From: an uncultured bacterium
Lineage (GTDB): Bacteria > Planctomycetota > UBA1135
DNA length: 64,000 nucleotides
Direction: 5' to 3'
NCBI GenBank assembly: GCA_937919925.1
Contig: CALFOT010000011.1
Coordinates: forward strand, 25,743-89,742
The translations under genes and the position numbers were made by a program. Shown in pieces: positions 1-10,426 of the stretch. The notes under the pieces were generated by a model. That model made no database searches and had not been told where the DNA came from. It saw only the letters and a list, made by a program, of their open reading frames with translations. Position 1 is the stretch's first letter, and each line of letters opens with the position of its first letter.

Positions 1-384
1 CTCACGTTCCTGCAACAAAGCCTCCAATAAAAATGGCGCCGTACCAATGCGTTGGCGTGCGACTGCAACGGCTGCTTCACCGACGGCCGGCAACAAAGCC
101 ATCTGCACCTTGCTGGCTAAGCGACACAACGCCGCCCAACCTGCGGCATCCAAGGCCAACACCTGAGCACTAACCCCTTCCACCAACAAACGCATGCCCA
201 ACAGTGGTTTGATGCCTTGCGCCACACATGCCTTTTGAAAAGGTACTGCCCCCCACAATCCATTGAGATCGGCCATACCCAGAGCGTCAATATTGCCTGC
301 CGCTGCACAAGCAGCCAACTCTTCGACCCGCGATGCGCCCCAATGGAACGACCAAGGCGTTGCTACAGAGAGTTGCGCAACCAC
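1..384 (-). CDS. dnaE2: Error-prone DNA polymerase III alpha (DnaE2-like), N-terminal fragment
   Basis: This gene is cut by the left edge, and only about 128 N-terminal codons are visible. The frame reads as a PHP-domain start: 'SFHWGASRVEELAACAAAG' followed by 'DALGMADLNGLWGAVPFQKA' and 'GIKPLLGMRLL'. This matches the usual DnaE order of an S-F-L-x-G-A-S-like motif, then a T-D-x-x-G-like motif, then I-K-P-I-x-G. The DnaE family extends primers; the DnaE2 branch does so at lesions. The proposed start is GTG at 384, which overlaps the end of dinB by about 20 nt, so the two are probably translationally coupled within the lexA operon. The metal-binding histidines normally found at the domain start are absent. 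Assignment to DnaE2 rather than DnaE1 rests on operon context. The gene is missing from the ORF track because it runs off the window. Confidence 0.72.
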   Translation of the reverse strand, partial: MVAQLSVATPWSFHWGASRVEELAACAAAGNIDALGMADLNGLWGAVPFQKACVAQGIKPLLGMRLLVEGVSAQVLALDAAGWAALCRLASKVQMALLPAVGEAAVAVARQRIGTAPFLLEALLQERE

Positions 385-1556
385 AAGCGATCCCCGCTTT
401 GTACCGACTGCTCACCGTATTTTTTGCGGATTTTATCCTGCACCGCAATACGTTCCCGTTGCACCACACGTTCTTTTTCAAACAGACCGCCTTGCCAAAA
501 ACCACGCTCTAAACCCGTAAAGCGCACGCCCAACAAACGCACCAGAGTGCGCCGTTTCAGCATGCGGTCTAGCTGCTGTTGCGCGACCTCCCACCATTCC
601 AAATCATGGTCACTCGGTGCTGGCAAAGTAAAATCACGCGTTTCGGTGACAAAATCGGCATAGCGCACTTTCACACTTAAGGTGCGCGCTAAAAAACCCT
701 CGGCGCGCAACTCTACGCAGGCCTTTTCGAGTAACTTTTGCAAGCGCCCGCGCAACACTTTGAGATCATCAAGATCTTCTGCAAAAGTGCGTTCATGCCC
801 CAGCGACTTACGTTCGGGGCGCTCCCAAGGCGGGCAAACAGGGGTTTCATCCACCCCGCGCGCGCGCCGCTGCATGGATGCACCATAACTTCCAAACACT
901 TCTTCTAGGAACCAGCCTGCAGTGCTGGCCAAAACCCCAAGTTGATCAATGTGGAAATCGCGCAACCGTTTGGCCGTCACCGGCCCAATGCCCGGCATCA
1001 CCTTCACCGGTAAAGGCGCAAAAAAACGCGGCTCCTGGCCAGGCCGGACATCGAATAAACCACACGGTTTGGCGAAACCCGAAGCCACTTTACTCACCAA
1101 ACGATTACTCGAAATACCAATGGTAAGATCCAACCGTAAACGCTCTTTGACCTCGCGACGCATCGAATCGGCCGCATCCAACGCATTGCCAAACAAATGA
1201 TGAGTGCCACTCAGATCCAAATAGGCCTCATCGACCGAGACTTTCTCAACGAGCGGAGTATAGTTGCCAATCAACTCAAAAACCGCCTTGGAAGCACGAC
1301 TATACATACCATGGCTGCCACCAACGCGAATCAAATCTGGGCATAAACGGAATGCTTGGCCCATTGGCATGGCCGAATGTACACCAAACTGGCGCGCCTC
1401 ATAAGAGGCTGCCGCCACCACGCCACGTGTTTCAGGTGAGCCGCCGACGACCACTGGCCGCCCATATAAACGCGGATCCAAAACCCTTTCTACCGACACG
1501 AAGAAGGCATCTAAATCCACGTGCAAAATTGAGCGCCCGTGGTTGGAAATATTCAC
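363..1556 (-). CDS. dinB: DNA polymerase IV (Y-family translesion polymerase)
   Basis: A 397-residue Y-family polymerase that copies past damaged bases. The palm catalytic motifs are intact: 'HVDLDAFFVSVE' near residue 12 and 'SVDEAYLDLSG' near residue 108 carry the metal-binding acidic residues. A helix-hairpin-helix thumb motif ('VMPGIGPVTAKRL') and a little-finger domain follow. Near the C-terminus 'QGGLFEKE' fits the QxxLF beta-clamp-binding motif. The active-site residues distinguish it from ImuB, the inactive Y-family protein usual in dnaE2 cassettes. The GTG start overlaps the stop of the upstream S24-like gene (GTGA), and dnaE2 follows with an overlap, so damage-inducible co-expression from the lexA promoter is likely. 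Confidence 0.93.
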   Translation of the reverse strand: MNISNHGRSILHVDLDAFFVSVERVLDPRLYGRPVVVGGSPETRGVVAAASYEARQFGVHSAMPMGQAFRLCPDLIRVGGSHGMYSRASKAVFELIGNYTPLVEKVSVDEAYLDLSGTHHLFGNALDAADSMRREVKERLRLDLTIGISSNRLVSKVASGFAKPCGLFDVRPGQEPRFFAPLPVKVMPGIGPVTAKRLRDFHIDQLGVLASTAGWFLEEVFGSYGASMQRRARGVDETPVCPPWERPERKSLGHERTFAEDLDDLKVLRGRLQKLLEKACVELRAEGFLARTLSVKVRYADFVTETRDFTLPAPSDHDLEWWEVAQQQLDRMLKRRTLVRLLGVRFTGLERGFWQGGLFEKERVVQRERIAVQDKIRKKYGEQSVQSGDRLWLRNSL

Positions 1557-1903
1557 GCCCCTTGATGGCCACTACCGAACTGACGTAAACGCCCAACCAC
1601 CACGCCCCGCACCTTGGCCGGCTGTTCATCCGATGGCGGCGGAAAACCACCGACGCCCTTAAAAGACAAGTCTTCCTGCACGCGCGCCAAAGCCAGCGTG
1701 CGCGCGAGGCCAGTCCACCACACAACCAAATCGCCAACTTCTACATCCACGCCCTCGGTGATTGCGAAAACATCGCCATCTTGAAGGTTTTCATCATCTG
1801 CGACGGCAACCCCGCGCAGGGCTAAGAAAAAGGTGTTCTTACGGTTGGCGAATTGCCCCGCCTGACCATCCATTTTGACTTCTTCTAACATGACTGCGCT
1901 CAT
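1553..1903 (-). CDS. LexA/S24-like domain protein lacking the catalytic dyad
   Basis: A 116-residue protein between lexA and dinB. Its core 'NLQDGDVFAITEGVDVEVGD' and the final 'VRGVVVGRLRQFG' line up by eye with the C-terminal peptidase domain of the neighbouring LexA ('GILDGDLLLVQQASSANSGE' and 'LAGRVVGVMRWW'). The position of the catalytic serine in LexA ('GDSM') is occupied by a Val-Ala stretch. The lysine region ('EATVKRY') corresponds to 'LALARV'. It therefore looks like an S24 beta-fold without protease activity and without a helix-turn-helix. A good Shine-Dalgarno (AAAGGAG) precedes the ATG, and the stop overlaps the dinB start. It could be a UmuD-like partner of the polymerases or a non-cleavable LexA partner; both are inference. 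Confidence 0.6.
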   Translation of the reverse strand: MSAVMLEEVKMDGQAGQFANRKNTFFLALRGVAVADDENLQDGDVFAITEGVDVEVGDLVVWWTGLARTLALARVQEDLSFKGVGGFPPPSDEQPAKVRGVVVGRLRQFGSGHQGA

Positions 1904-1929: not shown

Positions 1930-2568
1930 TTATGCCCACCATCGCATCACGCCGACCACCCGGCCGGCCAGACTGAAATGATCCTCACGCCGCACCACAA
2001 TATCTTCCATGTTGGCATTTTCTGGCCGCAACACCACAAAATCCCGCTGCGGTAAATAACGCTTTACCGTGGCTTCCATAGCTTCGCCTTCGCCGATCAA
2101 AGCCACAACAATTTCACCGCTATTGGCGCTACTTGCCTGCTGCACAAGCAGTAAATCCCCATCCAAGATGCCGGCGTCGATCATCGAATCTCCCGCCACG
2201 CGCAGCGCAAAATCAGCCGCACTGCCAGCCAGGCGCGGCAAGCTCCCCTGGTGGTTTTCGAGCGCCAAAATGGGCAAACCCGCAGCAACCTGGCCCAAAA
2301 TAGGGATAGTTTCTGCCGAACTATGGCCGATATTTGTAGTGCAAAGATGAATGGACCGCGAAGAACGCCCCAATTTCAGATAACCCTTACGCTCCAGCGC
2401 CCGAAGATGAAAATCTGCGGTTTGCGGGCTTACACCAAGGCTAACTCCAAGCTCGGCACGCGTGGGCGGACGCCCCAAAGCTGCCAAAACTTGCTGGAGA
2501 GCCGCGAGTGCGGCGCGTTGGCGCGGACTCAGCGGTTCCAGATTCATGAGGTGGGCAGACACAGCCAT
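1930..2568 (-). CDS. lexA: LexA repressor (SOS regulator, S24 autoprotease)
   Basis: About 212 residues. The N-terminal winged helix-turn-helix covers residues 14-73 ('SPRQRAALAALQQVL' to 'ERKGYLKLG'). The Ala-Gly self-cleavage site is at about residues 96-97 ('QVAAGLP'), and the catalytic dyad is Ser128 ('GDSM') and Lys169 ('EATVKRY'). LexA represses damage-response genes until RecA filaments trigger self-cleavage. The ORF track starts at 2640, but that extension crosses the promoter. ATG 2568 lies 7 nt after a TATACT -10 box, which would give a leaderless mRNA; ATG 2547 is the alternative. No Shine-Dalgarno precedes either. It heads the cassette lexA - S24-like - dinB - dnaE2. Confidence 0.93.
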   Translation of the reverse strand: MAVSAHLMNLEPLSPRQRAALAALQQVLAALGRPPTRAELGVSLGVSPQTADFHLRALERKGYLKLGRSSRSIHLCTTNIGHSSAETIPILGQVAAGLPILALENHQGSLPRLAGSAADFALRVAGDSMIDAGILDGDLLLVQQASSANSGEIVVALIGEGEAMEATVKRYLPQRDFVVLRPENANMEDIVVRREDHFSLAGRVVGVMRWWA

Positions 2569-2575
2569 CTCGGCG

Positions 2576-2603
2576 AGTATATGACAAATATCATATAGCA
2601 CAA
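2576..2603 (-). promoter_or_regulatory. lexA promoter with candidate LexA operator palindrome
   Basis: On the minus strand a -35 box TTGTGC (2598-2603) is followed after 16 nt by a -10 box TATACT (2576-2581). Between and overlapping these is a perfect inverted repeat, TATATGA-N6-TCATATA (2578-2597). A palindrome filling the -35/-10 spacer of lexA is the classic position for autoregulation. The motif differs from the known E. coli (CTGT-N8-ACAG), Bacillus (GAAC-N4-GTTC) and alphaproteobacterial boxes. The same site lies about 50 bp upstream of the divergent gene at 2649. That LexA binds here is inference. Confidence 0.6.
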
Positions 2604-2648: not shown

Positions 2649-5600
2649 ATGACACTCATGCAAACGCCTGTACGGCTTGTACTTTTGGCACTGCTCGGCT
2701 CCTGCGCCAGCGCCACTTCCACAGCTCCGTCTGAAACTCCTCGTGGTGATCACGGTAGTACTTTCACCGACGTAGTCGATCAACCCGCGCAAGAACCTGC
2801 GCCCGCCATCCAGGAGCCCACAGCTGGCCCACTGCAAGAGCCCGTCGGCAGCACCAAGCCGCTGACAACAGCGCCACCGCCGCCGACTGAAGCGGATGCC
2901 GCCCAGCTCTACCTCAATGGCGATGTGCCCGCAGCACTTAAACTCTATACGCAGTTGATGGCGCGCACGATTACCGATTTACGCACAGCAGAGGCGCCGA
3001 CTCAACCGAACACCGCAGCCGACCCCATCGCTGCCGCACGTCTACGCGCCGAACTGGAGTGGCTCTTGGTGAGTTTCCGCAAAGCCGCCAAAATGAGCGG
3101 ACACGACGGACTATGTCGGGAGCTACTCGGCTCGCTCGCCATCAACGAAAGCGATGGCAACGTGTGGGCACTCACCCGTTGGTGCTACCCGCAAGCGGCG
3201 CAGGATCTCAGCAAACTCACCAACTGGCAGTTCGTCGGCCCGTTTGATAACGAACGTGGCGTGGCTCTTGATCGGCAGCTCGCACCCGAGACCGATCCCA
3301 ATAGCCTGACTGCTTTCGCTGGCAAAGTACGCCCGGTTGCTTGGCGTACCACACCGCCAACGTCGGCCGCCGATGGTGTGCTTGATTTTTCGCTGCTACT
3401 CACACCGGCGGAACAAACGGCTGTGATGCTGCGTACGTGGGTGAACTCCGCTATCGACCAAGACGCGTTCTTGATGCTGGGTATCGCCGGTGAAGCACGC
3501 GTGTGGCACGATGGCACCACGGTGCTGCATGCTGGCGGTGAACATGAGTTACATTTTGATGCGCTTGCTGCGCCACTCAAATTGCACGCCGGTTGGAATG
3601 AGATTGCCATGAAACTTGGCAGTCGTGATCATGCGCCGCGTTTCGAAGCGCGCTTGATTGACGCCGTAACCGGCCGCGCATTGCACCTCGAAGACAACTC
3701 CACTCCACCGGCCACGCTGCTGCCGCAAATCCTCAGCGCCGCGGATCCACAAAAAGTGATTTTGGCGCCTCCTGGAGCTATCGCCTATTACTTGGCGACC
3801 ACTTATGTTGCGCCCGAAAACGCAGAGGCTTACCATCGCTTGGGCGTTTTACAGGATTGGTACAAAACCGCGCCGAAATCGATGTTTCCAGGCCGCGAAG
3901 ACCTACGTACTGCTGTAGAACTGGCACCAACAGAACTACGCTATCGCGTCGATTACGCCACCGCGTTGTTCCCTGGAAAGGATATCGATGCCGCAGAAGC
4001 GGACCTAAATCCGTGGCTCCAACAAGCCCAATTGATTCTGGAGCAAGAGCCCGGCCAAGTGTTTACCAACTTGCAGCGCGTGATGGCGGTACTGCATTAC
4101 CAGCACATTGAAAATTTGGGGTTGGAGGCTATCGCCCGTTTAGAAGCCGCCGGTCATGAGGAACCGTGGCTGCTTCGTGCTAAGGCTGCTGTCTACGCTG
4201 CCTTTGACCACGATGACCTTGCGCATGCAACACAAATGCGCATTCTTGAGCATCCGCAGATTGATCAGTACCCAACGATTCAGCTGACCGCGGCACGCCA
4301 AGCGCTACGCCGAGGCAGCCCAGAGCTATTGGCAATCTTGCAGAAAACTTTCGCGGCGACCGACAACAACTACGCTTTCGCCAGCATCGTTGAGTGGCAG
4401 CGTCAACAACGCGCACAGTTTGATGCCACACTTGAGTTAAACGAACTCGAACAACTGATGGCGCGCCAGCCATGGAGTTCCGCAACCTTGCGTGACTGCG
4501 CCAAACGTTTCCAGTCGCAGGGTAATCTTGAGGTGGCGTTTGCATTGCTCGATCGCGCGCTAATGTTGAAGCCAGAGTCAGCTGCAAATTTGGCCTTGCT
4601 GGCGCGCCTGCATCTTGCCGCTGGGCAAATCGAAGAAACGATCATTGCGCTAGAGCAAGAGCTCAATATCGATTTTACCAACGAAGATGAGCAACGCTTA
4701 CTGGACCACCTCCAGTCGTTGGATGGTGCCACTTTTGATGCGCCTTATCACGAAAGTTTGGCTGCCATTTTGGAGCGCAACAACACTTCTGATGGCAACT
4801 TGGCCAGCGTCGATTACAGCCACGAATACCTGCTCTACCGCAGTGTGGTGCGCGTCAATCCAGACAGCACGGCTAGCCGCTACTATCGTAAAGTCATGCG
4901 CGTGTTGAACGTCAACGGCGTGCGCGAGCTAGATGAAATTACATTCCCATTCCGTTGGGGCGATGAAGATCTGCGCGTGCTCACCGTGAATGTCTTGCAC
5001 CCGGATGGCAGCACCGAAACCGCAAAAACCAACCGTGGTTGGCGCGCAAGCCAAGTGGATTTGCCACGCCTTCAAGTGGGCGACATCATCGATTTAGAGT
5101 GGAAAATCAGCGATCTCCACACCACCTACTTTGGCAAATACTTCGCCATTGATCACTCTATGACAGCAGATCGTTCGGTACCCACACACGAAAGCCAGTT
5201 GGTGCTTTTAGTGCCGGATGAACTGCCTTTGGAGTTCCATACGATTCGTTTGGAAGGCGCGCAAGCGGAAGTTGGCGCAACGGCTGCTTTTGGCACCAGC
5301 CATACTTGGACGGTGCACGATTTAGCACCCCAGCGGATTGAAAATTTGATGCCCCACGCCGAAGAAACAGTGGCGCGCGTGCAAGCTAGCTCCTACACCT
5401 CGTGGGATGATTTTGGCGCTTGGTGGTGGAACTTAATTGATGCCGGCATCACCGTATCTCCTGAGATGAAAACCAAAGTTGCCCAACTCACCGCAGACAA
5501 GCATGATCTGCGTGAACAGGTGGCGGCAATCTATGGGTTTGTTGCGAATGACATTCGTTACAACGCTTGGGAGTTCGGCGTACATGGTTATCAACCTTAC

Positions 5601-6668
5601 ACCGCGCCCGTCATCTTCAGCCGCCAATTTGGCGACTGCAAAGACAAATCCATTCTCCTGCGCGCCATGCTTTCGGAAATCGGCGTAGAAGCTTATCCAG
5701 TGCTCCTCTTGCGCTCGGCGGATGGTCGGCACGGTGGACGACGGCATGAAGAAGACCTGAGTTTGGCAATGGTCGATCACTTCAACCACTGCATCGCTTA
5801 CATTCCGGCGCAACAAGATTTGCCGGCAATGTTTGTTGACGGCACTGCACGCTTGCATCCGCTGGATGTGCTGCCATACGATGACCGCGGCGCGCAAGTG
5901 CTGGTGGTAAAGCCCGAGGGCATTGAACGCGTGCGTATCCCCTTCTCGGAGGCCGCCGACAACACCCGCGCCGAGCACTACACGATTTCCTATGAAAGCA
6001 ACGGCAGTGCTGCTGTCGAAATGTTTCTCACCCCGCAAGGCCGCTGGGATCCAACCTACCGCAATGCTTTTGCTGGTGGTGATCAAAAGCGTAAAGAAAC
6101 GGTCGAGAACATGTTGTCGGCCCAACTTGGTCCGCTGGATGGCGATGTGACTTACGACATTCAAGATGTGGAGCAACTCAACAACCCGCTGCGTCTGCTG
6201 TTCGGCGCCAAAGCCACTAGCCTGGCGCGCGTGGTTGATGGTCACCTAGAAATCCCGGCGATGCTGAACCCGCTCAATCTGCTGCAAAACACTGCCGCCG
6301 AAGCAGAACGTACTACCGATTTGCTGTTGGATAGCCCTTGGGTCCGCGCGATCACCATCGATGTTGAACTCCCTGAAGGTTGGAACATGGATGTACTGCC
6401 CGCGGCGATTGACGTCAGTAATCACGACGCCAGCTACCAGTGGAATGTGGTACGCAGCAAAACTGGCCTGCGCATTAGCGAACGTTATGCCCTGCTCACC
6501 CACCGCATCCCGGTGGCGCGTTACCCAGCTTTCCGCGCACTGTGCCGCGTCATCGATAACAGCCAAGACCGCTACTTGGAAGTAACTGCTTCACTGCCCC
6601 CGGAGACGGAAGAAACCCTCCAAGCTGTCCCTGTAGAAGCCTCCGTAAAAGATAAGGAGGACAAGTAA
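2649..6668 (+). CDS. Exported DUF3857/transglutaminase-like protein with repeat region (active-type)
   Basis: A 1339-residue protein with an N-terminal lipoprotein-type signal ('LLALLGSCAS') and a Pro/Glu-rich linker. A long helical, TPR-like region follows to about residue 690, then a DUF3857 domain at about 720-900 ('RYYRKVMRVLNVNGVRELDE', 'LPRLQVGDIIDLEW') and a transglutaminase-like fold. The cysteine of 'FGDCKDKS' (about 997), the histidine of 'DHFNHCIAY' (about 1047) and the aspartate of 'FVDGTAR' (about 1063) form a plausible triad. Such proteins are predicted to be periplasmic or outer-membrane anchored; substrates are not established. Its TAA overlaps the next start (TAATG), a paralogue of the same layout. 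It is divergent from lexA. ATG 2658 is an alternative start. Confidence 0.8.
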   Translation: MTLMQTPVRLVLLALLGSCASATSTAPSETPRGDHGSTFTDVVDQPAQEPAPAIQEPTAGPLQEPVGSTKPLTTAPPPPTEADAAQLYLNGDVPAALKLYTQLMARTITDLRTAEAPTQPNTAADPIAAARLRAELEWLLVSFRKAAKMSGHDGLCRELLGSLAINESDGNVWALTRWCYPQAAQDLSKLTNWQFVGPFDNERGVALDRQLAPETDPNSLTAFAGKVRPVAWRTTPPTSAADGVLDFSLLLTPAEQTAVMLRTWVNSAIDQDAFLMLGIAGEARVWHDGTTVLHAGGEHELHFDALAAPLKLHAGWNEIAMKLGSRDHAPRFEARLIDAVTGRALHLEDNSTPPATLLPQILSAADPQKVILAPPGAIAYYLATTYVAPENAEAYHRLGVLQDWYKTAPKSMFPGREDLRTAVELAPTELRYRVDYATALFPGKDIDAAEADLNPWLQQAQLILEQEPGQVFTNLQRVMAVLHYQHIENLGLEAIARLEAAGHEEPWLLRAKAAVYAAFDHDDLAHATQMRILEHPQIDQYPTIQLTAARQALRRGSPELLAILQKTFAATDNNYAFASIVEWQRQQRAQFDATLELNELEQLMARQPWSSATLRDCAKRFQSQGNLEVAFALLDRALMLKPESAANLALLARLHLAAGQIEETIIALEQELNIDFTNEDEQRLLDHLQSLDGATFDAPYHESLAAILERNNTSDGNLASVDYSHEYLLYRSVVRVNPDSTASRYYRKVMRVLNVNGVRELDEITFPFRWGDEDLRVLTVNVLHPDGSTETAKTNRGWRASQVDLPRLQVGDIIDLEWKISDLHTTYFGKYFAIDHSMTADRSVPTHESQLVLLVPDELPLEFHTIRLEGAQAEVGATAAFGTSHTWTVHDLAPQRIENLMPHAEETVARVQASSYTSWDDFGAWWWNLIDAGITVSPEMKTKVAQLTADKHDLREQVAAIYGFVANDIRYNAWEFGVHGYQPYTAPVIFSRQFGDCKDKSILLRAMLSEIGVEAYPVLLLRSADGRHGGRRHEEDLSLAMVDHFNHCIAYIPAQQDLPAMFVDGTARLHPLDVLPYDDRGAQVLVVKPEGIERVRIPFSEAADNTRAEHYTISYESNGSAAVEMFLTPQGRWDPTYRNAFAGGDQKRKETVENMLSAQLGPLDGDVTYDIQDVEQLNNPLRLLFGAKATSLARVVDGHLEIPAMLNPLNLLQNTAAEAERTTDLLLDSPWVRAITIDVELPEGWNMDVLPAAIDVSNHDASYQWNVVRSKTGLRISERYALLTHRIPVARYPAFRALCRVIDNSQDRYLEVTASLPPETEETLQAVPVEASVKDKEDK

Positions 6669-9600
6669 TGATTACCATTCTCGCCATTTCCACACTGCTG
6701 CTTGCTAGCCCAGCCGCAACTCTGCAAACAGCGCAAGTTTCTACCTCCAAGCTCAGCTCGGAATTAATTGTCGGCCACCCGGGTTTGTTCAACGGTGACG
6801 TGGATAGCGTGCGCAACGATCTGCTCGAAGCCATGCTCAACGATCGGTCGTCGCCGCTGCTTGGCGCCGCCGCCCATCAAGCTCTGTTGCTAAGCGAATA
6901 TTGTTCAACCAATATGGATCCAACTCTGTTGGCGCAGTTGATTGAAGGCGTCGATAACGGCGCCGCATCGGCCGACATTCGTAGCCTTTATATACAGGAG
7001 TTGCAACGCAGCCGCTTCCAAGATATCTCGCCCTTGCAGCTGCCACAGCGCCCACCACACCAGAATGATTTGTTCGATCACTGGTTCACCAATTGGCGTG
7101 TACTGCAGCCATGGGGCGAACTGGATCACCCTACCCCAATGCGCGCAGCCACCATCCCGCCCGATCCGCGGCAGCTGCAAGTGGTGGATCCGGCGAATGG
7201 CCAAACCCGCACTTGGCAAACTCTTACCCGCACCTCCAACCGCACTTGGATTCGGCCAGATAACCTAGCTTGGCAAAATGTCGGCTGTGGTTATGCCGCA
7301 CTTTGGGTGCGCGCTGAACCGCAAGTTGCCATGCTCGAACTGCATGCCGATGAAGCCATGCGTGCGTGGTGGAACGGCATGCCCACTTTCGAAGCTCTGC
7401 GTGAAGGTTTGCCCGAACGCAAAGACACCTTCCAAGCTTATGTGAATGTACAAGCTGGTTGGAACTTGCTGTTGGTCCAGTACGAAAACGGTCAGGACCT
7501 GTTTCTCGGCGGCCGCTTGTTGACGCGCGATGGCCGCTTGTTGCCATTCTATGAGTGGGAAGACGCAACCAGCGCCCCGGAGTTGCCTGCAGTGCCAATG
7601 CCTGCTGAAATTTTAGATTTGGCCTATTGGCAGCCGCTTGGCAATGATCCTTGGGATGTGATTTTGCGTTGCGCTTTAGCCTTGCATCACAATCGTGCCG
7701 ACTTGGCACTGGCGACTCCAGAACCACCGGCTATGAGCAACCAGCAAATGGCTGCATGGCTGAATTGGCAGCATCATGCTTACCGTCAGGCCTACCACTT
7801 ATCACCTTCTGTAGTGCGCAATCGCTTACTCGAAATTGAAGCGCGCAGTAGTGAATTAGCCTGCAATGATGTCGGCTTGGAACTCTTCGCAGCCGCTCGT
7901 TTGCAAGAAGAAGATAAACGAGAAGAAGCACTTACACTGACCCGTGCGCTCGTCGCAGCACACCCCGATATTTACGCTGCCCGTAGGCTAGAAGCGGCCA
8001 TTCTGCTCGAAATCGACCGCAGCGGCACTTTAGCCCAACCGGTGATTGAAGCGATAGCCGCCAGTTTTCCTCAAGCCGATTGGCCTTTGGAACAACTGGA
8101 GTCTTTTGCCACGGACCACGGCGACCGCGCGCGTGCTTTATTATACGCCAAAGCGCGCTTGACGACGAACACCGAAGGTGGCTGGAATCTGATTGATTTG
8201 TTACTCGAAAGCAGCGATCCCGAGCAAATTCAACTTGCTCATGATTTATTCGCTCGCGCCGCCTTCGAGGAGCCCGATCATTACAGCACCAAGCGCATAC
8301 AGCGCCAGCTGTGGCACATTGATGGCAAGCAAGATAAAGTGTTGGCGGAGTTGCGCGCCGAGGTCGTGCGCACGCCCAACTTTATCGATGCCTACCGCCG
8401 CTTGGCCGAGTATCAAATTCGTCATGGCGAGTTAGCCGCAGCCACCCAGGCCTACGAAACGATTTTGAATCTTGACCCAAGTAATGAACAGGCTTTACGA
8501 ACTCTAAAGGTGCTTGCGAACCAAGATGACGCCGCCGAATTTTTCGCCACTTTTGGTCCGGATGTCGCGGCGCAGTTGGCCCAGCGGCAAAGCATTGCTG
8601 GCGACAACTCCACCGCCATGCTGCTCGATAGTGGCATGGTTTACATGCTCGCCGACGGAGGCTTGATTTACCGCGTTCACAATCTCGATTTAGCCCTCGA
8701 CCGCAATGGCACCGAAGTTCTGCATGAAATGGGCGTGGTTGGCTCTCCGCAGCTAGCACGCATCATCACCAGTGATGGTGGGATTTTGGAACCCCACCAG
8801 GTTAATGATAGCTTTGTGATGCCTTCGCTTGATCCGGGTGATGTCATTGAAACCGTATACGACCGCTACATTCCCGGTTTATTTGGACTGGCTGCAAACC
8901 CTGGTATATGGAACTTTTCCTCCTTCGAACAACCGTTTGCGTTGAGTCGCTGGGTTATTTTTGTACCGAATGGTGCGCCAGGATTTTTGCGCGAACATAA
9001 TTTTGATGGTGGTCATGAGGTGCTTGATTGGAAGAATGGCAAAGTTCATATTTTCAATCGCGCCGAAAATGCCCGCCTGGAACCTGAGGTTCTGATGCCG
9101 TCGGAAATGGAACTCCTGCCGTGGGTTGCTTTTGGCAATGATACTCCCCTGGAACGGGTGGCAGAAAAATGGCGCACCTACTTCCTGTGGCAAACGTCGC
9201 TCCCCGCCGATACCGAACTTGAGCTGCGCACCTTCCTGGCAACCCTCGATCAATCGGGAAGCAATCTTGAAAAAGCACAACGTATTTACGCGGCCGTCAC
9301 CCAACTGATTTTGGATTTCAATGATGACGGGAACTTGGTGGATGTCTGGACTCTCAAGCGTGGCAACCCCACCTTCTTGTTGTCCGCTCTGTACCGTCTG
9401 GCCGGCATCCCCCATGAGTGGTCTTTGCTGCAAACGAGTGCACCGGAACTGAAGGAAAATCCTCTCACCCCCTTCACCAGCGGCGCCGACTTCGTCTACC
9501 CAGCTCTGCGCGTTGCGGAAGCGGGCGCCGAGCCTGTGTGGATGTTGTTGTTGACGCGCGGCACACCCTTTGGCGAATTGAGCCCCGCCCTGCTTGGTGC

Positions 9601-10426
9601 TCCCGCCATGGTGTTGGAGCCCCAAGGCTACCGCCTTGAGGAAGTTTCGCGCGACGGATTAAATGAGTTGTGGGATATGGATCTCCACATTGCTTACGCC
9701 ATCAAAGCCGATGATTCTGCTGCCGCCATCGGCAAACTCACCATGGGTGGCGTGCAAGGTGCCGCAATCCGCGAAGCTCTCGCGCAACTGTCGCCGCAAG
9801 AAATCGATCAAGCCTTACGTCAGCTCTCTGCGCAAATGGTTAAAGGGTTGAATTTGCGAACCGCGCAAGTTAGCGATATGGAAATCACCGGTGGACCATT
9901 GGTGATTGACTTTGACGGCGTCATCCCTGAATTTGTGCAGCGCCGTGAAAACAGCAATGGCGCGCGTTTGCGCATCCCGGAACTTGGCCTAGCAGATGGG
10001 CTCGGGCCAGCCGAGCGCCAGTACAACTTCGTGATGCGTGCGGCGCAGCGTGTCCGCACCAGCGTACAACTGGATACTGGCAGCGGCTGGACTCTAGAGT
10101 ACGGTCCGGAAAACAGTAGTGAAATCCGTGATGGCTTCCGCTATGACTTCGCCGTGGAGAAAGATGCGCAACACCTCTTGGTGAGGCGCACTCTGGAAAT
10201 GCGCGGTACCGCAATCTCGGCTGCGGATTTCCCATCTTTCATCGCCACAATGAAAGCATTGGAAAATCAAGAAACGCGCGCAGTTCGCCTCACCGAAGTT
10301 GTGGGTGAAGAGGTGCTCGAACCAGCTCTTGAGGAAGCTGTGCTTGAGGAAGCTCCTCTTGAGGAAGCTGTGCTTGAGAATACGGTTGGGAATGAAGATC
10401 CCGAAACCGAAACTCAAGAACTGTAA
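6668..10426 (+). CDS. Exported DUF3857/transglutaminase-like paralogue lacking the catalytic cysteine
   Basis: A 1252-residue protein with a cleavable signal peptide. Its layout matches its upstream neighbour: helical repeats ('FIDAYRRLAEYQIRHGELAA' is TPR-like), a DUF3857-like middle ('SLDPGDVIETVYDRY') and a transglutaminase-like C-terminal part. Where the neighbour has 'FGDCKDKSILLRAML', this protein has 'RGNPTFLLSALYRLAGIPHE', so the catalytic cysteine is missing. The equivalent histidine and aspartate are not evident. It may be a structural or substrate-binding partner. A strong Shine-Dalgarno (AAGGAGGAC) sits inside the end of the upstream gene. The C-terminus carries LEEA(V/P) repeats from a 15-bp tandem DNA repeat. 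Its 3' end overlaps convergent gshA by 13 bp. Confidence 0.75.
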   Translation: MITILAISTLLLASPAATLQTAQVSTSKLSSELIVGHPGLFNGDVDSVRNDLLEAMLNDRSSPLLGAAAHQALLLSEYCSTNMDPTLLAQLIEGVDNGAASADIRSLYIQELQRSRFQDISPLQLPQRPPHQNDLFDHWFTNWRVLQPWGELDHPTPMRAATIPPDPRQLQVVDPANGQTRTWQTLTRTSNRTWIRPDNLAWQNVGCGYAALWVRAEPQVAMLELHADEAMRAWWNGMPTFEALREGLPERKDTFQAYVNVQAGWNLLLVQYENGQDLFLGGRLLTRDGRLLPFYEWEDATSAPELPAVPMPAEILDLAYWQPLGNDPWDVILRCALALHHNRADLALATPEPPAMSNQQMAAWLNWQHHAYRQAYHLSPSVVRNRLLEIEARSSELACNDVGLELFAAARLQEEDKREEALTLTRALVAAHPDIYAARRLEAAILLEIDRSGTLAQPVIEAIAASFPQADWPLEQLESFATDHGDRARALLYAKARLTTNTEGGWNLIDLLLESSDPEQIQLAHDLFARAAFEEPDHYSTKRIQRQLWHIDGKQDKVLAELRAEVVRTPNFIDAYRRLAEYQIRHGELAAATQAYETILNLDPSNEQALRTLKVLANQDDAAEFFATFGPDVAAQLAQRQSIAGDNSTAMLLDSGMVYMLADGGLIYRVHNLDLALDRNGTEVLHEMGVVGSPQLARIITSDGGILEPHQVNDSFVMPSLDPGDVIETVYDRYIPGLFGLAANPGIWNFSSFEQPFALSRWVIFVPNGAPGFLREHNFDGGHEVLDWKNGKVHIFNRAENARLEPEVLMPSEMELLPWVAFGNDTPLERVAEKWRTYFLWQTSLPADTELELRTFLATLDQSGSNLEKAQRIYAAVTQLILDFNDDGNLVDVWTLKRGNPTFLLSALYRLAGIPHEWSLLQTSAPELKENPLTPFTSGADFVYPALRVAEAGAEPVWMLLLTRGTPFGELSPALLGAPAMVLEPQGYRLEEVSRDGLNELWDMDLHIAYAIKADDSAAAIGKLTMGGVQGAAIREALAQLSPQEIDQALRQLSAQMVKGLNLRTAQVSDMEITGGPLVIDFDGVIPEFVQRRENSNGARLRIPELGLADGLGPAERQYNFVMRAAQRVRTSVQLDTGSGWTLEYGPENSSEIRDGFRYDFAVEKDAQHLLVRRTLEMRGTAISAADFPSFIATMKALENQETRAVRLTEVVGEEVLEPALEEAVLEEAPLEEAVLENTVGNEDPETETQEL
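10328..10381 (+). repeat. 15-bp tandem repeat encoding LEEAV/P
   Basis: The unit CTTGAGGAAGCT plus three bases (GTG, CCT, GTG) is repeated three times, and a fourth partial copy follows. It encodes an acidic Leu-Glu-Glu-Ala-(Val/Pro) repeat at the C-terminus of the second transglutaminase-like protein. Near-identical copies suggest slippage and possible length variation between strains. Confidence 0.9.

Follow-up and report, generated by a model that had tools for sequence, protein, structure and literature searches.

A candidate LexA operator at the translesion-synthesis operon of a second LexA in an uncultured family of Planctomycetota

Introduction

LexA is known for operator changes during evolution, and 17 LexA motifs had been reported by 2021 (PMC8565304). 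Two LexA regulons within one genome, one of them serving a translesion cassette, are already known in Pseudomonas putida, with its lexA2-imuA-imuB-imuC(dnaE2) operon (Abella 2007, as related in PMC3901139 and PMC5261740). In Geobacter the operon reads lexA-imuB-C-polY, and no structure related to ImuB-C was found (PMC6511836); a LexA that omits recA is reported from this genus in a cited title, the box is GGTT-N10-AACC (PMC8565304), and GeoPolY-like polymerases have been reported from Planctomycetes also. Deinococcus possesses lexA-imuY-imuB-C-dnaE2 cassettes that are SOS-induced through RecA, for which the text of PMC8072749 gives no box. As for Planctomycetes, the LexA motif of E. coli is not recognised there according to one source (PMC3108266), and we found no planctomycete LexA box in the open literature searched.

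The window analyzed here is a stretch of 64,000 nucleotides from an uncultured member of the Planctomycetota (contig CALFOT010000011.1, positions 25,743 to 89,742). An earlier note on this DNA proposed that a palindrome in the promoter of a lexA gene is a LexA box of a new kind. That reading appears largely right, although it missed that the LexA in question, here called LexA-B, is a second LexA linked to a cassette.

Results

The palindrome and the lexA-B promoter

The features of the locus, by position in the window, are as follows.

2578-2597, no strand assigned: LexA-B box TATATGACAAATATCATATA, from the window sequence, pattern search and family alignment
2580-2595, within the LexA-B box: conserved 16-bp core TATGAYAWWTRTCATA
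2598-2603, minus strand: -35-like hexamer TTGTGC of the lexA-B promoter; family columns keep cTTG
2576-2581, minus strand: -10-like hexamer TATACT, sharing bases with the box
1930-2568, minus strand: lexA-B, a LexA with S24 peptidase domain (TIGR00498 151.7 bits, above cut-off)
1553-1903, minus strand: orf116, UmuD'-like and lacking the catalytic Ser/Lys; in nearly every family member it stands second in the operon
363-1556, minus strand: dinB, a Y-family polymerase of the Pol IV type in which the acidic catalytic motifs HVDLDAFF and SVDEAYLD are present
1-408, minus strand: dnaE2 (imuC), 5' part, overlapping the end of dinB and leaving the window at its left edge

The start codon of lexA-B occupies 2568-2566 on the minus strand, where the layout is TTGTGC, a 16-nt spacer, TATACT, 7 nt and ATG. 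As the earlier note had described, the palindrome occupies the spacer and overlaps the -10 hexamer, the sequence reading TATATGACAAATATCATATA. The lexA-B promoter escapes a strict sigma-70 scan; its -35 and -10 columns are nonetheless kept among relatives in the promoter alignment. Because the ATG follows the -10 by about 5-8 nt in most members, the lexA-B mRNA is likely leaderless. A divergent ORF of 1339 aa (2649-6668, plus strand) begins about 52 bp from the box, so that the two genes share the intergenic region in which box and promoter lie; another very long ORF follows at 6668-10426.

With up to three mismatches allowed, the 20-mer pattern matches the window twice, where 0.39 matches would be expected, and TATATGACAAATATCATATA is the only exact one. 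Genome-wide site counts also come from pattern searches with mismatches. Such a search of the window's own genome (G000; 138 contigs, 2.89 Mb, 87% complete) returns a single site within 0-1 mismatches of the refined 16-mer, that of the lexA-B promoter, and no strong LexA-B site elsewhere. Sites with two mismatches in the same genome were rejected as noise: their scores with the position weight matrix (PWM) do not exceed 12.5, and several lie inside coding frames.

Genes of the operon

The lexA-B product scores over the cut-offs of PF01726, PF00717 and TIGR00498, which identify the winged HTH of LexA and the S24 domain, and its alignment displays the scissile Ala-Gly (VAAG), the serine (GDSM) and the lysine (EATVK). 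The recognition helix, QTADFHLRAL, is kept in the family and differs from that of LexA-A, the other LexA of the order, so the HTH had fairly been called unusual. The dnaE2 ORF extends beyond the window to G000:C11:22920 and comprises 1078 codons.

No library model matched orf116 at standard thresholds. Among its members S24 is the commonest Pfam match (7 of 14 reach E<=1, the best of them 5.6e-4), and profile-profile comparison with LexA gives P = 2e-5. The AlphaFold model (pLDDT 86) has the fold of UmuD' and the LexA C-domain, the best PDB matches being 1umu, 8gmt and 1ay9 (E 5e-4 to 1.4e-3). The conserved positions of orf116 include no GDSM and no equivalent of the catalytic lysine. The product of orf116 may be a mutasome subunit, and it may also be related to the unexplained ImuB-C domain of Geobacter.

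The order lexA-B - orf116 - dinB holds in nearly all family members, and dnaE2 lies directly behind lexA-(orf116)-dinB in nine genomes, that of the window included. The operon thus unites dnaE2 with a Y-family gene and lexA, the combination that defines a cassette of this type, and contains neither imuA nor a catalytically dead ImuB. We do not class it as ImuABC because its second gene is orf116 and its polymerase is Pol IV-like, with intact acidic motifs.

Conservation of the box in the family

The LexA-B protein served as query against 151 related genomes, and the upstream regions of same-family orthologs were compared; the family genomes are draft assemblies or MAGs with a completeness of about 73-90%. 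Immediately ahead of the lexA-B start codon, TATGAYAWWTRTCATA is found with at most three mismatches in 24 of 25 family genomes, among which G008 (locus L279) and G022 (L280) are counted: 18 have 0-1 mismatches, four have two and two have three. The outlier, G020, has a site with five mismatches and 1.5 bits. This genome is GC-rich; the box at its dinB-dnaE2 reads AATATCTGACGTTCGTCCTATACT, and the barely recognizable one at its lexA-B reads TCTGTCGGACGTCATA (L032, L187), a possible case of motif drift.

In 20 promoters aligned on the box, the information content is 1.37 bits per column in the box versus 0.20 over the 30 most distal upstream columns; besides the box, conservation is confined to cTTG of the -35, TA.T of the -10 and a few g/c positions. 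The six-base spacer, previously taken to be free, is conserved too (YAWWTR), which corrects the earlier description, and the core is the 16-mer listed above. At no more than one mismatch, most family genomes have one site, at lexA-B, and the reversed control yields 0-1. Throughout the family the box and the lexA-B gene occur together, and the sampled sister families have neither. Among 392 Planctomycetota genomes there are few exact matches outside the family (five, besides G031), none of them near lexA. In G031 (family f7), two exact or near matches were dismissed as chance, both being within coding frames.

Relocated polymerase genes and recA

In five of the six genomes where dnaE2 or dinB-dnaE2 lies outside the lexA operon, the box is found at its own start.

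G013: box at separate dnaE2, 33.0 bits
G018: box at separate dnaE2, 32.9 bits
G011: box at separate dnaE2, 21.5 bits
G019: box at separate dnaE2, 14.2 bits, weak
G020: box at separate dinB-dnaE2, 21.4 bits

As background, 205 kb of other DNA was scored, nearly all from the same family, and the PWM score peaked at 12.5. G016 has a separate dnaE2 without the box, and LexA was not detected in the G016 genome. The earlier note would have counted against a LexA box the absence of the motif from recA and other SOS promoters and from lexA upstream regions in relatives. Absence from recA was indeed found (0 of 23 recA loci), whereas other SOS genes in five genomes, and lexA in nearly all, have the box. 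The comparison suggests that the LexA-B regulon is essentially the lexA-B operon cassette.

A second LexA and its direct repeat

LexA-A, the type found across the order, is present in every family genome with LexA matches, except possibly G019; in the window's genome it is encoded at G000:C15:48034-48711. In a tree with 79 outgroup sequences chosen by similarity to LexA-B, the LexA-A of the family joins the LexA of the order (100/98), while LexA-B forms a separate clade (100/99) that adjoins the sampled gammaproteobacterial LexA group (95/95). The tree indicates that LexA-A is inherited vertically within the order. A duplication of LexA-A within the family as the source of LexA-B is not supported, since the tree puts LexA-B with the sampled gammaproteobacterial LexA.

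An unbiased Gibbs search recovered a direct repeat, GTTAGGGTTTTGTTTGCC, upstream of lexA-A in 22 of 22 genomes. In 14 of 23 genomes the recA promoter has a match to its PWM that scores 11-21, a level reached in 0-3 of 100 shuffles, and the lexA-B promoter in the window has no such element (score 2.8). In four genomes of the genus, recA and lexA-A are the only sites within 0-1 mismatches of GTTAGGGTTTTGTTTGCC. The copies in the window's own genome are the following.

G000:C15:47852-47869, plus strand: direct repeat GTTAGGGTTTTGTTTGCC upstream of lexA-A
G000:C4:2967-2984, minus strand: direct repeat GTTAGGGTTTTGTTTGCC upstream of recA

The recA copy reads GTAAGGGTTTTGTTAGGG and scores 15.3; the recA site of G009 reads GTTCGGGTTTTGTTC, and loci with the repeat include L246, L162, L252 and L256. 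We infer that LexA-A is the binder of the direct repeat, which makes the latter a candidate operator. Service of recA by this element would explain why recA has no LexA-B box.

Between the direct repeat and lexA-A lies a conserved short ORF whose product of about 30 aa has a single hydrophobic segment (for example MKQQLRNLKRSDLEAAAMITLLMLVFVCI), found in G000:C15 (L246/L282) and in most family genomes, with similar ORFs in L040 and L042 (families f7 and f8); it is possibly an SOS-induced small membrane peptide. A further LexA-like gene is located at G007:C21:16893-17824 (L176) beside a weak RecA-family match, perhaps ImuA-like, which suggests that this genome has a third LexA, or else an imuA cassette of the classical type.

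Discussion

We put at about 0.88 the probability that the palindrome is the operator of LexA-B on a mutasome operon, relieved through RecA, with recA and LexA-A forming a separate circuit. A LexA-B dimer would bind the 16-bp box and exclude RNA polymerase: the operon (lexA-B - orf116 - dinB - dnaE2) has a single evident promoter, whose spacer the box fills and whose -10 it overlaps. On DNA damage, RecA filaments would bring about self-cleavage of LexA-B at the Ala-Gly bond through its Ser/Lys dyad, and the freed box would let the translesion-synthesis (mutasome) genes and lexA-B itself be made, while recA and LexA-A would run their own circuit through the direct-repeat element. Binding by LexA-B, repression and RecA-triggered induction are ascribed here by inference from the LexA family. 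LexA-B is most likely a mutasome-specific LexA, as is LexA2 of P. putida, because the boxes occur at lexA-B, dnaE2 and dinB and not at recA, where the LexA-A element is found instead.

One rival reading is a chance AT-rich palindrome around the -10 box with no regulator behind it. TATA-rich sequence is expected at a promoter, and when the upstream region is shuffled with its dinucleotides preserved, 8 of 100 versions contain a 20-bp palindrome as good; judged from its own genome alone, this one is no more than mildly unusual and constitutes weak evidence. Its significance comes from conservation across the family: the box is kept in 24 of 25 genomes while the LexA-B proteins are 50-80% identical and the flanks are not conserved, and it recurs at relocated dnaE2 and dinB. 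This footprint refutes the chance reading, whose probability is negligible. An inverted repeat could also fold as RNA, and the lexA transcript would then carry a hairpin in its 5' leader, as an attenuator or RNase site. The leader, however, folds no better than its shuffles (z = -0.17), and the box, lying upstream of and across the -10, would not be transcribed from the lexA-B promoter; we regard a hairpin as very unlikely.

It is less far-fetched, if still improbable, that the palindrome serves another regulator of the lexA-B operon and that LexA-B acts elsewhere or not there. In favour of this, the motif is unrelated to the known LexA boxes compared. Nevertheless, box and LexA-B gene are present together in the family and missing together in the sampled sister families, the targets are only lexA itself and two classical SOS polymerases, and besides the -35 and -10 no other conserved promoter element stands out. 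LexA genes, moreover, are usually autoregulated.

With a confidence slightly above even, we extend the operator reading to a joint picture of two SOS circuits, in which LexA-A would use the direct repeat GTTnGG-N5-GTTnG (11-bp period; lexA-A and recA) and LexA-B would use TATGATAWWTATCATA, at the mutasome only. The same picture comprises a mutasome of a new type, made of DinB, DnaE2 and a dead UmuD'-like subunit, a possible origin of LexA-B from a gammaproteobacterium-like source, and the novelty of both operators for Planctomycetota. A new LexA box for a second, mutasome-specific LexA is well supported by comparison of genomes, and one uncultured family thereby gains a testable box with unusually complete comparative support. 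It would present a clean case of two LexA in one genome dividing the SOS response between them, with one branch for recA and another for mutagenesis, and such a split is the starting situation of the duplication-and-divergence model of LexA motif change.

Comparison with known systems

The box had been said not to match well-known LexA motifs, and none of 13 motifs fits it, each having at least four mismatches within the box; motifs quoted in PMC8565304 and PMC3789691 are among them. The set covers Enterobacteria, Bacillus, Alphaproteobacteria, Xanthomonas, Geobacter, Bdellovibrio, Bacteroidetes, Leptospira, Verrucomicrobia, Fibrobacter, P. putida LexA2, cyanobacteria and Magnetococcus. The E. 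coli box CTGT-N8-ACAG is likewise a palindrome over the promoter with TG...CA in each half, but reads TGT-N8-ACA where LexA-B has TGA-N6-TCA. The LexA-B half-sites are thus 2 bp closer and flanked by TAT/ATA, with four mismatches among the eight fixed E. coli bases. The 11-bp period of the LexA-A repeat resembles the alphaproteobacterial GTTC-N7-GTTC layout.

As in Geobacter, lexA is followed by a small beta-rich gene and an apparently active Y-family polymerase, and an autoregulated LexA would leave recA out; the Geobacter box, however, is unrelated and its operon has no dnaE2. The place of orf116 corresponds to that of ImuB-C in the Geobacter operon. The Deinococcus cassettes share with the present one four genes headed by lexA, the lack of imuA and the terminal dnaE2, and differ in having an ImuY that is predicted to be inactive and a small gene placed between imuY and dnaE2. 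The LexA2 box of P. putida, GTAC-N4-GTGC, has five mismatches within the LexA-B box, and P. putida has imuA and imuB where this family has the UmuD'-like orf116 and a DinB with intact catalytic motifs. The likeness to P. putida lies in the arrangement: a second lexA heads a translesion-synthesis operon and would control it apart from the LexA that governs the general SOS response.
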